Shown in pieces: positions 5,638 through 11,311 of a DNA stretch of 57,822 bases. Position 1 is the stretch's first letter, and each line of letters begins with the position of its first letter. Source of the stretch: Fusobacteriaceae bacterium (GTDB lineage: Bacteria; Fusobacteriota; Fusobacteriia; Fusobacteriales; Fusobacteriaceae); the NCBI GenBank assembly GCA_031289425.1, contig JAITPM010000093.1, forward strand, positions 1 to 57,822. Reading direction: 5' to 3'. The translations under genes were made by a program, and so were the position numbers. The notes beneath the pieces are model-generated. The model saw only the letters and a program-made list of their open reading frames with translations, ran no database searches and had not been told where the DNA came from.

Positions 5638-6348
5638 TTACATAGAATATAGATATTTTATCTCATCATCAGTCAATTCTCTATATTCACCTTCATTAAG
5701 ATTCTCTATTGATAATTCGCCTATTTTTATACGTTTTAGTGATAATACTTTGCAATTTATAGCACGGCACATCCTTCTTATCTGTCTATTTCTTCCCTCT
5801 CTAATTGATATACTTATTGTGCTTTTATTATCTTTATAGTCCAAGATTTTTATTTTAGCAGGTAATGTGAGTCCATCCTCCAGCTTTATACCGTTTTCTA
5901 ATAAAAAAAGCCCATTTTTTTCTAACCCTCCAGCCATTACCAATATGTACTCTTTGTAAATCTCAGCTCTAGGATGCACCACTTTATTAAATAATTCGCC
6001 ATCATTGGTAAGTAACAACAATCCTGTTGTATCATAGTCCAATCTACCAATAGGAAAAATTTTTTCATTGCATTCTATCAAATCAACTACAGTTTTTCTA
6101 CCTCTATCATCTTTTACGCTGGATAATACATTTATAGGTTTGTTTAATATATAATAGACTTTTTTCTCTTGTAAATTTTTTATTTTTTTTCCATTTATTT
6201 TTATTTCGTCATTATTATCAATTTTCAATCCATGGTTTGCAATAATACCATTTACCATGATTTTTTTTTCGTCTACCATCTTATCTATTTCACGTCTAGA
6301 GCCTATTCCCATAGCAGCTAGATATTTATTCAATCTGATTTTTTCCAT
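5638..6348 (-). CDS. rluB: RsuA/RluB-family pseudouridine synthase
   Basis: 236 residues. An N-terminal S4 RNA-binding domain (about 3-48, RLNKYLAAMGIGSRREID) is followed by the synthase domain. The catalytic aspartate is D104 in GRLDYDTTGLLLLTNDG. The basic RNA-contact motif EGRNRQIRRMC lies near the C-terminus. The family modifies large- or small-subunit rRNA; in genomes with scpB next door the enzyme is usually RluB (23S rRNA). The ATG lies 2 bp after the scpB stop with no strong ribosome binding site, so translation is probably coupled. The exact target base cannot be read from sequence. Confidence 0.9.
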   Translation of the reverse strand: MEKIRLNKYLAAMGIGSRREIDKMVDEKKIMVNGIIANHGLKIDNNDEIKINGKKIKNLQEKKVYYILNKPINVLSSVKDDRGRKTVVDLIECNEKIFPIGRLDYDTTGLLLLTNDGELFNKVVHPRAEIYKEYILVMAGGLEKNGLFLLENGIKLEDGLTLPAKIKILDYKDNKSTISISIREGRNRQIRRMCRAINCKVLSLKRIKIGELSIENLNEGEYRELTDDEIKYLYSM

Positions 6349-6350
6349 TT

Positions 6351-7052
6351 TTAATCTACACTTTCTGCGTCAAATTCTTCGTCATCTTCATAAGGTTCTT
6401 CATAGGGTTCATACAAAACTTCTTCTGATTCATCTAAATTAGAAGTTTCAGGTATTTTACCATTTTCTGATAAATTCGGATCTATTACTTCATTTTTCAT
6501 ATTTTCAGCAATAATTTTAGAAATATCGATTTTATTATATATATTTCCGGTTTTAAGATCATTATATCCCGGTAGTTCTTCTATGTTTTCAATTCCTATG
6601 TATCCCAAAAATTTATCAGTTACCTCGTATAAATTAGGCCTTCCAGGTCCGCTTTTCTTTCCACATATTCGAACAAGTTTTTTTTCCAAAAGACTAAATA
6701 TTACTCCATCTACTAATATTCCTCTTATAGCCGCAATTTCACTTTTTGTAATTGGTTGCTTATAAGCAATAATAGTCAAAGTCTCAAAAGCTGCTGCAGA
6801 TAATTTTCTTGGTTTCCAATCTCTTTCAAAAAAATTAGTCACATCTTCCCCATATTTTGGATTAGTAACAAAATAAACATTATCTCCGGTTATTTCTAGA
6901 GATATGCCGGTGTTCCTTCTTTCGAATTTTAGGTCACGTAAAGTATCTATGGTTTCTTTTTCTGTTAATTCAAAATGTTTGGCCAAATCGCTTATTTTTA
7001 TTTCGTCTCCTCCAATAAGCATAATGGCTTCCATTTTATTCTTAATACTCAT
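6351..7052 (-). CDS. scpB: Segregation and condensation protein B
   Basis: About 233 residues. ScpB is the winged-helix partner of ScpA and SMC in chromosome condensation. Typical motifs are FVTNPKYGEDV, KLSAAAFETLTIIAYKQPITKSEI and RGPGRPNLYEVT-like (here KKSGPGRPNLYEV). The last ~40 residues are acidic. I chose ATG 7052 because AGAGGTGA sits at the right distance; a GTG at 7061 overlaps that ribosome binding site. scpA is not in the window, so the usual scpA-scpB pair is split. The downstream rluB link is typical. Confidence 0.92.
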   Translation of the reverse strand: MSIKNKMEAIMLIGGDEIKISDLAKHFELTEKETIDTLRDLKFERRNTGISLEITGDNVYFVTNPKYGEDVTNFFERDWKPRKLSAAAFETLTIIAYKQPITKSEIAAIRGILVDGVIFSLLEKKLVRICGKKSGPGRPNLYEVTDKFLGYIGIENIEELPGYNDLKTGNIYNKIDISKIIAENMKNEVIDPNLSENGKIPETSNLDESEEVLYEPYEEPYEDDEEFDAESVD

Positions 7053-7093
7053 AACTTTCACCTCTTATATAGTGCCATTTCCATTTTTTTATA

Positions 7094-8146
7094 TTAATAA
7101 TCTGTTTCAGGTGAAATCAAGATTTTACTATATCTCGAAAACTCTTTTAACAATACGTTTATACCATTAATAACAGCATTTAACGGATCATCTGAAATTG
7201 TTACTTTTAGATTTAAACTTTCTGATATTTTTTTATCAATACCGTTCAAAAGTGCTCCGCCACCTGTTATAAAAATACCTTTTTTCTTAATATCCGAAGC
7301 CAATTCCGGAGGAGTTCTCTCCAATATTACTTTTATTTCTTCTACTATCTGTTGGATTATATCACTTAAAGCTTCTACAATTTCTGAAGAATATACCTGC
7401 ACATTCTTAGGTAATCCATTTAATACGCTTCTTCCGCTTATTTCGACATATACATCATCATTCTCTCCCTGATCCATAACAGCTCCAATCTGTTTTTTAA
7501 TATCTTCTGCTGTTTTTATTCCGATAAGCAAACTATCCTTTTGACGTATAAAATCTACAATCGTAGCATCAAATTTATCTCCGGCAACTTTAAATGACGA
7601 TTTTTCTACTATTCCACCCAATGACAATACCGCTATTTCAGTCGTTCCTCCGCCAATATCTACAATCATATGACCCTCTGGCTCGAATATATCCAGTCCT
7701 ATACCAATTGCTGCTGCCATAGGTTCTTCTATAAGATAAGCCTCTCTTGCGCCGGCTTCTATTGTCACTTCTATTACTGCTCTTTTTTCTACCGGAGTCA
7801 CTCCCGCTGGGACACATATAATGACTCTTGGACTTGAAAATAAATTGTTGTGTTTAACTTTTTTGAAAAATATACGAAGCATTTTTTCAGTTATTTCATA
7901 TTCAGAGATAACCCCATTTTGTAGAGGTCTTATAGTTTCGAAATTCACTGGGAGTCTTCCCATCATTTGTTTTGCCCTTTCACCAATTTCAACTATTTCT
8001 TTAGTCTTAGAATTAACAGCCACAATAGATGGTTCATTTAAAATAATTCCTTTGTTTTTAACACAAATAAGGGTATTGGATGTACCAAGATCAATTCCTA
8101 AATCTTCAGAAAATATTCCTCGTACAGTTCTAAAAAAATTCTTCAT
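7094..8146 (-). CDS. mreB: Rod-shape actin homologue MreB
   Basis: 350 residues, typical for MreB/Mbl. The protein forms membrane-bound filaments that guide cell-wall synthesis. Visible actin-fold motifs are LGIDLGTSNTL (phosphate 1), VPAGVTPVEKRAV, IVDIGGGTTEIAVLSLGG (phosphate 2) and FITGGGALLNGI (adenosine). The N-terminal KNFFRTVRGIF is an amphipathic stretch that could bind membrane. AGAGGTGG precedes the start. It lies between maf and scpB; mreC and mreD are not next to it. It could equally be named mbl. Confidence 0.95.
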   Translation of the reverse strand: MKNFFRTVRGIFSEDLGIDLGTSNTLICVKNKGIILNEPSIVAVNSKTKEIVEIGERAKQMMGRLPVNFETIRPLQNGVISEYEITEKMLRIFFKKVKHNNLFSSPRVIICVPAGVTPVEKRAVIEVTIEAGAREAYLIEEPMAAAIGIGLDIFEPEGHMIVDIGGGTTEIAVLSLGGIVEKSSFKVAGDKFDATIVDFIRQKDSLLIGIKTAEDIKKQIGAVMDQGENDDVYVEISGRSVLNGLPKNVQVYSSEIVEALSDIIQQIVEEIKVILERTPPELASDIKKKGIFITGGGALLNGIDKKISESLNLKVTISDDPLNAVINGINVLLKEFSRYSKILISPETDY

Positions 8147-8224: not shown

Positions 8225-8803
8225 TTATAATTTATCAATATCATCTATTTTTATACCTATTTTTTCCAATTTTTTGATAAATTTTGCAATTGGAAATCCC
8301 ATTACATTAAAGAAATCACCATCTATTCTATCAATAAGTATAGATCCTTTTCCTTGTATTCCATAAGAACCTGCTTTGTCCATTGGTTCCCCTGTTGATA
8401 CATACCATTTGATTATTCTATCATCAATGTATCTAAAAAAGACTTGGGTCATCTCATAATCACTTACGTCAATATTTTTAGATACATTTATAAATGAAAA
8501 TCCAGTCAATACCGTATGTTTTCTACCAGATAATTTTTCTAGTGTCTTTATTGCATCTGGTTCATCATAAGGTTTGCCTATTATCATTTCATCTAATATT
8601 ACTACTGTATCAGCGCCTAATACATATCTATTCGGATATTTCAATGCAATAGACTGAACTTTATTTTTTGCAATTTCTAATATTTTTGATCTTATATCTA
8701 TTTTATCACTTTTTTCATCATCATCAGATACAATTATTTCTAATTTAAATCCAGCATTTTCTAGTATTTCCTTTCTTCTCGGCGATTTAGATGCTAATAT
8801 CAT
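8225..8803 (-). CDS. maf: Maf-family nucleotide pyrophosphatase
   Basis: About 192 residues. Maf proteins hydrolyse non-canonical or excess nucleoside triphosphates (dTTP/UTP or modified bases) to monophosphates. The signature ASKSPRRKEIL lies at the N-terminus, then SDDDE, the core VLGADTVVILD, and TGFSF later. I prefer ATG 8803 because GGGG lies about 6 bp upstream; ATG 8815 adds four residues but has no clear binding site. It lies upstream of mreB, a common pairing. Confidence 0.93.
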   Translation of the reverse strand: MILASKSPRRKEILENAGFKLEIIVSDDDEKSDKIDIRSKILEIAKNKVQSIALKYPNRYVLGADTVVILDEMIIGKPYDEPDAIKTLEKLSGRKHTVLTGFSFINVSKNIDVSDYEMTQVFFRYIDDRIIKWYVSTGEPMDKAGSYGIQGKGSILIDRIDGDFFNVMGFPIAKFIKKLEKIGIKIDDIDKL

Positions 8804-8859
8804 GACCTTCCCCATTTACATCTTTGTATATATTTTTATAATTATATTTTTTATATATT

Positions 8860-10152
8860 TTATTTCTTATAAAGTTTTACTATAGGAACTGCTTTGGAAT
8901 CTTTTTTTTCTTTATCGTTTAATTGTTCTTGTTCTTTTTCCAACATTGCATAAATATCTACAAGATTTGGTAATTTTATAATTTTTTTTTCTTGTTTTTT
9001 ATCATTTGAGCTTTCCGATTGATCTTTTTCAACATTATTATTTAAAACCTCTTTTAACTCTGTTTGTTCTTTTATATTTTCTTTTATATTTTCTTTTATA
9101 CTTTCTCTTATATTTTCTGTGTTAATCTCCTTTACTATTTCGTTTTTTATTTCATTTTTTATTTCATTCATCAATTCTTCTTTTAGTTCTTCTCTGATTT
9201 TTTCTTTTATATTATTTGTTAAATTACTATTATTTTTATTATTTTTATTATTATTTTTGTTTTCACCTGCAATTTTGATTATATTAAATTGTTTATCCGA
9301 ATTTGTTATTTCTATTTTAGGTTTTCTTTCTTTCCCCACGAAATAATCAAAACTATTAACTAAATCATTTTTATTTTTTTCAAATTCTGATCTTCCAATT
9401 TTCATTACTCTTTTTTCTTCTTTTTTATTTTCTTCCTTTTTATTTTCTTCTTTTTTAATTTCTTCTTTCATTTCATTTCCCGCATTGTTAATGATTTCAT
9501 TTATTGCTAAAGTCTCTATTTTAATTGATTGTTTTTCATTATTTTTTTCTTTATTCTCAGTTCCGCTAGCTTCTATTTTCGCTTCTTTTCTCTTTAATGC
9601 GATCTCAGAATTCATTCTTTCCTTTTGAATGTATTCTCTATATAAATTTACTATCCACTTTATCAGGGGATATACAAAAGAAATAGTAATTGATAATAAT
9701 AGAATTCCGACAAGTCCAGTATAAACAATTAAATAATTAAATTTAGATAATAAAAGATAAAACAGGTATGCAGGTATATACCCTATTTGATTTTTAAATA
9801 AAGTTATATTTATGGAATTTCTTAACAACGTTTGATCAGCTATTTTATTCTCAAATGGTATCTTCAGTTGAATCATAAAATATAGGTATACCACACAAAG
9901 GCTTCCTATAATTATAAATTCTACACTTATCGGGAAAAGTTTCCTTTTATCACTGGATATCACAAAACTTAAAATCAAATTTATACCTATAAGCAAACCA
10001 ATTAAAATCCAAATTTTTCCTATATACATGTCTATGTACAAAAAAAATTTTATATTTTCAAGTGGCCCTTCCAAGAAAAAATCAGCCAAAAGATATAGGG
10101 AAATCCCCATACATATATATTTGGGTTTAAAAAAATCAATTATTTTTTTCAT
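8860..10152 (-). CDS. FtsK-N-like 4-TM membrane protein without ATPase motor
   Basis: 430 residues. Four hydrophobic helices (about 12-27, 44-66, 76-95 and 138-165) make up the first 170 residues. The stretch GYIPAYLFYLLLSKFNYLIVY resembles the end of the FtsK/SpoIIIE 4TM domain. The remaining ~255 residues are charged and of low complexity. They include KKEEN pentapeptides near residues 230-247 and IKNE/NIKE four-residue repeats near 320-360. The end is KLPNLVDIYAMLEKEQE and a short basic tail. FtsK has the same layout of membrane domain, variable linker and 'LP-x-L' element before its motor. Here the gene stops, and maf follows only about 45 bp on, so no motor domain is encoded. Neighbours are mreB and scpB. 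An unrelated membrane protein is the alternative. Confidence 0.5.
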   Translation of the reverse strand: MKKIIDFFKPKYICMGISLYLLADFFLEGPLENIKFFLYIDMYIGKIWILIGLLIGINLILSFVISSDKRKLFPISVEFIIIGSLCVVYLYFMIQLKIPFENKIADQTLLRNSINITLFKNQIGYIPAYLFYLLLSKFNYLIVYTGLVGILLLSITISFVYPLIKWIVNLYREYIQKERMNSEIALKRKEAKIEASGTENKEKNNEKQSIKIETLAINEIINNAGNEMKEEIKKEENKKEENKKEEKRVMKIGRSEFEKNKNDLVNSFDYFVGKERKPKIEITNSDKQFNIIKIAGENKNNNKNNKNNSNLTNNIKEKIREELKEELMNEIKNEIKNEIVKEINTENIRESIKENIKENIKEQTELKEVLNNNVEKDQSESSNDKKQEKKIIKLPNLVDIYAMLEKEQEQLNDKEKKDSKAVPIVKLYKK

Positions 10153-10373: not shown

Positions 10374-10661
10374 TTATTGCTTTTCTGTATATACAGATAC
10401 TTGTTTTTTAGTCTTTCTATATCTTTCAAATTTTATATATCCATCTATTAAAGAAAATAAAGTATGATCCTTCCCTATTCCCATATTTTCACCAGGATGA
10501 AATATAGTACCTCTTTGTCTTACAATTATATTTCCAGCTTTTACAACTTCTCCATCATATTTTTTTACTCCTAAATATTTAGGATTTGAGTCTCTTCCAT
10601 TCTTAACAGAGCCTTGTCCTTTTTTATGAGCAAATAATTGTATATTCAATCTAAATAACAT
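10374..10661 (-). CDS. rpmA: 50S ribosomal protein L27 with cleavable N-terminal leader
   Basis: 95 residues. Mature L27 starts A-H-K-K-G-Q-G-S; here it is preceded by [10 protein letters not shown], the Prp-cleaved leader known from Firmicutes and fusobacteria. The expected cut is between F10 and A11. The flexible mature N-terminus reaches the peptidyl-transferase centre, so removal of the leader is needed for ribosome function. AAGGAGG precedes the ATG, which directly follows the prp stop codon. Confidence 0.97.
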
Positions 10662-10997
10662 CTATTTTACCTCCTTCTCTACAAGCTTTAAATTTTTAGG
10701 ATATTCTTTTTTAAGTTCCTTCAGCATCACAAACATTGTTTCTAATAATATGTCCGCTTCTTTCATTTTATCTTTATTCGATACATTCTCCATATTTACA
10801 TCCAGATAACCATCATCGCCCATTATATATTGGGGATCTATTTGCAAAACATCTTGCATACCACCAAGTGGAGTTTGTAAAATTATTGAAAGAGCAGCAC
10901 ATACGATATCATTTCCTATTATATTATAACCAGAATGTCTATAAGATCTATATCTTATTATTTTTCCATTCTTTCTGTAAATTCGCACAGTAGTCAT
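10662..10997 (-). CDS. prp: Ribosomal-processing cysteine protease Prp
   Basis: 111 residues. Prp is a small cysteine protease that cuts the leader off L27. The family's catalytic pair is visible: H21 in RHSGY and C33 in DIVCAALS, about twelve residues apart as in characterised Prp. It lies exactly between rplU and rpmA, the diagnostic position. The ATG is only 2 bp after the rplU stop and lacks a clear Shine-Dalgarno sequence, so translation probably depends on rplU. Confidence 0.95.
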   Translation of the reverse strand: MTTVRIYRKNGKIIRYRSYRHSGYNIIGNDIVCAALSIILQTPLGGMQDVLQIDPQYIMGDDGYLDVNMENVSNKDKMKEADILLETMFVMLKELKKEYPKNLKLVEKEVK

Positions 10998-10999
10998 TA

Positions 11000-11311
11000 C
11001 TACGCTTTTATAGCTACAATTTTTATTTCAGTATAAAATTGTCTGTGACCTTTTTTTCTACGAGTTGCTTTTTTAGGCTTGTATTTGAAGTTTATTACCT
11101 TTGGTCCTTTTCCTTGAGAAAGAATTTCTGCACTAACACTAGCTCCATCAATTTTGGGAGTACCAATTTTCAAAGTTCCATCCCCACCAATCATTAAAAC
11201 ATCAGTTAATTCTACAGTTGATTCTACCTCAGCATTTAACTTTTCTACTTTTAATACGTCACCTTCAGCAACTTTGTATTGTTTTCCACCAGTTTTGATA
11301 ACTGCATACAT
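11000..11311 (-). CDS. rplU: 50S ribosomal protein L21
   Basis: 103 residues, the normal length. It opens [14 protein letters not shown], the L21 signature, and carries the basic C-terminal 23S rRNA-binding segment [21 protein letters not shown] precedes the ATG. It is the first gene of rplU-prp-rpmA and has its own promoter and leader (11312-11409). Confidence 0.97.

Follow-up and report, generated by a model that had tools for sequence, protein, structure and literature searches.

A probable motorless descendant of ftsK beside maf and mreB in Fusobacteriaceae

FtsK couples cell division to chromosome segregation, and to our knowledge its two halves have so far been separated only by engineering. 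The window analysed here, a stretch of 57,822 nucleotides from a Fusobacteriaceae bacterium, contains a gene that raises the question of whether such a separation has also taken place in nature: its product looks like the N-terminal part of FtsK and ends where the motor would be expected to begin. An earlier sequence-only reading had offered a split FtsK, a divisome scaffold derived from FtsK and a decoy for FtsK assembly as possible explanations. From the comparisons described below we consider it likely, with a probability of roughly 0.8, that we are looking at the ftsK of this lineage, stripped of its DNA-pumping motor, and that its protein performs the division job of FtsK_N as a septal scaffold. 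In what follows, f1 denotes the family of the window and f2, f3 and f4 its sister families, g1 to g14 are genera, and G and L numbers stand for genomes and loci; f1 very probably corresponds to Fusobacteriaceae and f4 to Leptotrichiaceae. The term slot gene is used for the ORF at the ftsK position in f1 loci, the representative in the window being 8860..10152 on the minus strand.

The ORF call places the gene at exactly the position claimed earlier, 8860..10152 (−), with an ATG start and a product of 430 aa. Residues 1–170 (9643..10152, −) make up an FtsK_N-like membrane domain whose predicted helices are colinear with the FtsK N-terminus. Four membrane helices were apparent both from hydropathy and from the AlphaFold model, in which helices span residues 10–27, 36–44, 47–64, 73–95, 107–120, 125–137 and 140–240, with 10-residue pLDDT means of 76–97 over residues 1–230. 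The remainder, residues 171–430 (8863..9642, −), consists of a charged, repeat-rich linker and the C-terminus, K, E and N together accounting for 55% of residues 171–385. A Pfam scan of the protein detected no motor domain in the ORF (PF17854 alpha/beta, PF01580), and FtsK_gamma (PF09397) was found neither in the protein nor in its genome. Hydropathy, structure prediction and domain scan together bear out the original description of four helices and a charged linker that stops before the motor. The ‘LP-x-L’ end that had been pointed out is present as KLPNL at residues 393–397, but since it occurs in only 1/43 family members and in none of the linkers of 10 aligned FtsKs, it is not evidence of kinship. 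The linker-coding DNA holds degenerate tandem repeats of 12 and 15 bases (window positions 9067–9213 and 9413–9468), which may account for the length of the linker; the slot proteins of two congeners are shorter than the 430 aa of the window protein, at 266 and 278 aa.

The gene order around the slot bears on the origin of the gene. The earlier reading had maf following the gene, with mreB and scpB beside it. All three lie 3′ of the slot gene on the same strand: maf at 8225..8815 (−), 44 bp past the slot-gene stop (56 bp to an alternative start), mreB at 7094..8146 (−) and scpB at 6351..7061 (−). The last two served as synteny anchors together with 5638..6348 (−), the product of which we take, from its sequence, to be an RluB-type pseudouridine synthase. 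All ten of the sister-family FtsK loci fetched have ftsK at the slot. The eight from f4 carry an ftsK of 798–902 aa that adjoins mreB on its upstream side, and the two from f2 and f3 show the order ftsK, an ORF of ~125 aa, maf and mreB. The first 10 f1 loci fetched had a homologue of the window protein in the slot in 10/10 cases, and the window gene itself occupies the position of ftsK in this order. More widely, a slot ORF was called in 61/62 f1 loci from 48 genomes, immediately followed in 61/61 by maf, mreB or scpB in the same orientation; the exception is a contig that ends before the slot. An 11-member profile detected the slot gene in 50/61 f1 genomes, and four of the 11 genomes that it missed (G004, G017, G011 and G008) carry a divergent four-helix (4TM) protein in the slot. 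A 43-member profile added G078 and G080, which brings the total to 56/61. The remaining five are G067, where the contig ends just past mreB, and four assemblies that are 62–82% complete. When only genomes that are 90% complete or better and carry no more than 5% contamination are counted, 46/47 possess the slot gene.

One relative retains a further piece of FtsK. The slot protein of G011 (L085, genus g10; 373 aa) comprises a membrane domain, a linker and an FtsK_gamma domain at residues 322–358, with no motor between them. The gamma assignment is based on a Pfam E-value of 1.4e-6, a genome-search score of 31.0 bits (cut-off 30.6) and an hhalign probability of 95.1%. The G011 assembly is 6% contaminated; the contig with gamma carries native f1-type maf, mreB and scpB. 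At the same place, the C-termini of the g7 and g3 proteins align weakly with gamma (24% and 10%, respectively; 1.7% when pooled), and nine other sets score 0.1–1.3%, so that G011 holds the only clear gamma among the slot proteins. The simplest story is that the motor was excised first and gamma was lost later, in one clade. The branching order within f1 is tentative, because it changes with the choice of root. With f2/f3 as the root and f4 omitted, the earliest branches are g3+g7 (0.40), followed by g10 (0.95–0.98), and a reduced-taxon tree agrees; rooting on f4 alone places g1 first (0.62). The tree with all taxa is unstable, with the outgroups apart, f4 joining g1 (0.59) and f2/f3 lying near g3/g7.

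By its homology to FtsK_N, the slot protein is expected to act as a membrane scaffold at the septum. Division of E. coli depends on FtsK_N, which forms hexamers in the absence of the translocase (excerpts of PMC3870252). We propose that the ftsK of the f1 lineage has lost its alpha/beta motor, with the membrane domain and linker remaining in the same slot, and that the product would still do the division job of FtsK_N by joining the septal machinery as a membrane scaffold, probably an oligomeric one. The protein could instead serve mainly to tether DNA or Xer proteins at the septum. Such a role would fit the retention of gamma in G011 and its possible retention in g3 and g7, two early branches of the f2/f3-rooted tree; gamma of E. 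coli FtsK contacts XerD, and it is through gamma that FtsK normally activates XerD at dif (excerpts of PMC5052618). However, searches for gamma in the window protein were negative, and G011 is the only clear case among the slot proteins, although the membrane domain persists, and the Xer partners of such a tether are degenerate (see below). We therefore consider a tether unlikely as the main function and favour the stand-alone FtsK_N-type septal scaffold.

Descent from FtsK also had to be weighed against a chance likeness, in which an unrelated four-helix protein displaced ftsK and any 4TM protein with a charged tail would look equally similar. Identity is indeed very low. Comparison of 43 slot proteins with 10 FtsKs by hhalign nevertheless gave a probability of 97.5% (E 4.9e-12) for a colinear match of slot residues 16–202 to FtsK residues 22–224 at ~10% identity, and 97.2% when only the N-terminal parts were used. 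Reversed profiles scored 4.5% and 5.5%, and 40 column shuffles in blocks of ten had a median of 30%, with a single shuffle reaching the maximum of 90.5%. Circular shifts of the FtsK profile are uninformative as a control, since their scores stay near 95–97%. An HMM of the FtsK N-terminus was run against the 369 ORFs that reach 120 aa in 29 f1 loci. Slot proteins took all of places 1–6 (best E 1.4e-10; five pass 0.01), and below sixth place they are no longer set apart from other ORFs. Two glycines are the sole invariant columns among the 43 slot proteins, and both align with glycines of FtsK: Gly45 (codon 10018..10020, −; 43/43) with the invariant Gly50 of FtsK (L035 numbering), and Gly124 (codon 9781..9783, −; 43/43) with the SGG motif of FtsK, in which Gly123 is invariant. 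The AlphaFold model of an f3 FtsK N-terminus has helices at 3–27, 31–69, 77–98, 105–117 and from 123 onward; compared by helix boundaries, the two predicted structures are similar, with the same helix order and near-equal spacing.

Database profiles and folds were silent on the membrane domain. The search for Pfam FtsK_4TM suggested in the earlier reading gave no match in the window protein, the sole match seen in f1 having an E-value of 1.4 (L089). This silence cannot refute kinship, because the same profile also misses full-length f4 FtsKs in 4/4 cases scanned of 8 fetched (L036, L039, L041 and L043); it does find the FtsKs of f2 and f3. A PDB fold search returned no match for the slot protein, and a search of the PDB with the FtsK profile found no credible membrane-domain entry either. 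An unrelated origin thus has in its favour the low identity, the missing Pfam and fold matches and the one high-scoring shuffle. Against it stand the colinear match that holds up to the reversed and shuffled controls, the two aligned glycines, the predicted helix order and spacing, the ranking of slot proteins in the HMM search and the gamma domain on one member. The ~125-aa ORF beside ftsK of f2 and f3, which could also have given rise to the slot gene, is ruled out by a profile comparison of 0.2%. We regard an unrelated origin as very unlikely. The hhalign match with its controls and the AlphaFold helix order identify the 4TM membrane domain of the FtsK/SpoIIIE family, and synteny, profile comparison and the gamma-bearing relative converge on an FtsK-type membrane domain and linker without a motor. 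The suggestion of a divisome scaffold derived from FtsK therefore stands as far as derivation is concerned, and the scaffold part of it we put forward as an expectation from homology.

Loss of motor and gamma might also mean that ftsK is decaying into a pseudogene. The slot proteins range from 206 to 551 aa among 43 members, and in G075 (L068) a short slot ORF stops 421 bases ahead of maf. On the other hand, dN/dS over the whole slot gene was 0.12–0.44 in 14/14 pairs, and the gene is present in nearly all high-quality genomes, as noted above. Furthermore, the slot stop overlaps the maf start in 15/19 loci in which a start could be recognised by its pattern (27 examined), which makes it likely that the two genes are co-translated. 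Overall, the slot gene is a working gene, widespread and under purifying selection, and we see hardly any room for a pseudogene. A C-terminal ‘DDTSI’ peptide common to several members comes from the start of maf, read in a different frame, and so is not a motif of the protein.

The absence of a motor extends beyond the window protein. PF01580 scores 183–210 bits in 24/24 sister genomes (one from f2, one from f3 and 22 from f4). Among the 61 f1 genomes searched with it, four pass the Pfam cut-off and none of them has an FtsK-like match. The f1 matches are a 1639-aa ORF of G012 (138.6 bits), a 468-aa ORF of G048 (36.5 bits) and three weak ones (in G000, G008 and again G012) of 24–27 bits that cover only profile positions 7–65 of 221. 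With a full-length FtsK profile, motor-type matches in the same 61 genomes were confined to these ORFs of G012 and G048, over motor positions only; the profile also matches the membrane domain of the slot gene in G006 (E 7.2e-10) and G083 (E 5.7e-8). Among the genomes searched, those assigned to named species show the contrast, no motor being found in Ilyobacter polytropus and one being present in Streptobacillus moniliformis. The sole strong motor match in f1, the 1639-aa ORF of G012 (G012:C10:58515-59519; L077, L101), has an FtsK-type motor and no match to the FtsK membrane domain.

If FtsK were split in this lineage, a second gene elsewhere should encode the motor. The check for such a gene, and for a full-length FtsK in the same genome, was proposed with the original reading and has now been run: in the window's own genome no motor match scored above 26.5 bits. 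This assembly is a 123-contig draft, 97.8% complete, which leaves some room for a missed gene, but motor-type matches are limited to 2/61 f1 genomes, and six f1 genomes are single contigs. Since the genome yielded no FtsK motor and the family none of the ordinary type, we reject a split FtsK as highly improbable, and a decoy as well. A decoy or inhibitor, whose motorless membrane domain could poison FtsK hexamers, can practically be dismissed, as no resident FtsK was found in the genome or the family for it to act on and the gene occupies the ftsK slot itself.

Loss of the pump raises the question of how chromosome dimers are handled. In six sister genomes sampled, with two Xer recombinases each, the catalytic residues are intact in 12/12, and the type a proteins end in HPxA in five and in RPFS in one. 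In f1, all 12 type b sequences, a sample drawn only from g3, g4, g5, g7, g10, g12 and g14, have lost Arg I and His III, and 10/12 have lost His II. Among 15 f1 type a sequences, 15 lack the tail, 8 lack Arg I and 7 lack His II, and the window genome is among the losses. Arg I is kept in seven, from g3, g5, g7, g10, g12 and g14; only 2/7 of them retain the aligned Lys, in a hairpin that is itself poorly aligned. Judged by these alignments, catalytic residues are gone from both classical Xers of f1: from all sampled copies of one, and in derived genera from the other.

A third recombinase of ~330 aa, which we term type c, is present in 36/37 f1 genomes and in 0/24 sister genomes (at E 1e-20), the mirror image of the distribution of the motor; an example is G000:C28:51769-52758 (L105, L144). 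Its catalytic residues were intact in 8/8 proteins examined, and type c forms its own clade among the Xers aligned, a tree from which XerS and XerA were left out. In G042 (1.03 Mb of 2.05) and G007 (1.165 of 1.68 Mb) the gene lies at the switch in GC skew, as read from 20 sample points each, and hence at the replication terminus in two genomes; G019 is rearranged, and its GC-skew placement of type c is ambiguous.

A dif-like site, with two 11-base arms and a 6-base centre, was recognised in 10/20 regions upstream of type c with at most 5/22 mismatches to a consensus that was read from the same regions, so that this count is circular. The 28-bp site starts 39–65 bp 5′ of the type c start codon (loci L151, L152, L153, L155, L156, L158, L160, L163, L165 and L166), and the window genome has no recognisable full site. 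Genome-wide, the four sites with 0–1 mismatches all lie less than 1 kb upstream of type c (G006, G005, G052 and G043), and the 13 with two mismatches fall into six upstream of type c and seven elsewhere. Weaker matches lie mostly away from type c. With up to three mismatches, 37 f1 genomes gave 78 matches as opposed to 32 for the pattern read backwards, and many of these are therefore due to chance. When compared with the dif of B. subtilis (sequence from PMC3025954, seen in part), the summed score was 285 (simulations: mean 261, maximum 269), with only 7/20 best matches falling on the conserved site; the apparent likeness is significant only in sum.

FtsK-XerCD-dif may have been replaced by a motor-independent system, with chromosome dimers handled without FtsK translocation, probably via the third, lineage-specific Xer. 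In the fullest form of this scenario, Fusobacteriaceae would have dismantled FtsK-XerCD-dif: excision of the motor would have left a septal FtsK_N protein, with gamma first kept and later lost, the classical Xer pair would have lost catalysis, and a single terminus-located Xer with its own dif-like site would resolve dimers without a pump. We advance this tentatively, at a little short of even odds. The contrasts in motor, Xer and slot all come from one branch of the tree and so amount to one correlated event, not to independent tests.

Parallels exist for both parts of the proposed arrangement. The slot gene resembles FtsK/SpoIIIE (FtsK_4TM, FtsK_alpha, FtsK_SpoIIIE and FtsK_gamma) in gene position, four-helix N-terminus, conserved glycines and charged variable linker, and differs in that the window protein has neither the alpha/beta motor nor gamma and, by its sequence, is not a DNA translocase. 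It is also like the laboratory truncations FtsK_N and FtsK-deltaC of E. coli, which consist of the membrane domain with or without the linker and form hexamers at midcell without the translocase; truncation in E. coli went with longer, filamentous cells and reduced viability (excerpts of PMC3870252). Unlike these, the protein described here would be the natural form in a bacterial family. Type c is comparable to XerS/difSL in being a single recombinase gene that often lies beside a dif-like site, but XerS still needs FtsK, and the f1 site is only predicted, in 10/20 upstream regions. In occurring in genomes without an FtsK motor, type c is closer to archaeal XerA/dif, which works independently of FtsK (both systems from excerpts of PMC5357621). 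A full-text search of mostly non-subscription literature, judged from titles and the openings of abstracts, returned no published report of a motorless FtsK in Fusobacteria, of FtsK loss or truncation, or of XerC/dif in Fusobacterium. What appears to be new here is a putative FtsK descendant that is not a translocase. This suggests that the membrane and pump jobs of FtsK are separable in nature, and makes f1 a direct test of what FtsK_N does alone and of how DNA and dimers of a circular chromosome are cleared from the septum without a pump. If true, the scheme would represent motor-independent dimer resolution in bacteria as well as a natural separation of the two functions of FtsK.

The surroundings of the slot vary among relatives. 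On the 5′ side of the window slot gene lie rpmA, prp and rplU (window 10374–11311), and several relatives have a divergent RseC/MucC-like gene there (one scanned). Between mreB and scpB, several f1 loci carry a gene for a protein of ~500–550 aa that is not in the window (for example L027:9780-11426, L029:4947-6518 and L096:4751-6376); the one member scanned had no Pfam match, and by eye the protein has a signal-like start. In genus g8, MreB is apparently missing from G045, G078 and G080 and from loci L093 and L094, where only weak DnaK-type matches were seen. In L093, L094, L172 and L173, maf is followed by scpB, and the g8 genomes G009, G051 and G079 retain MreB.
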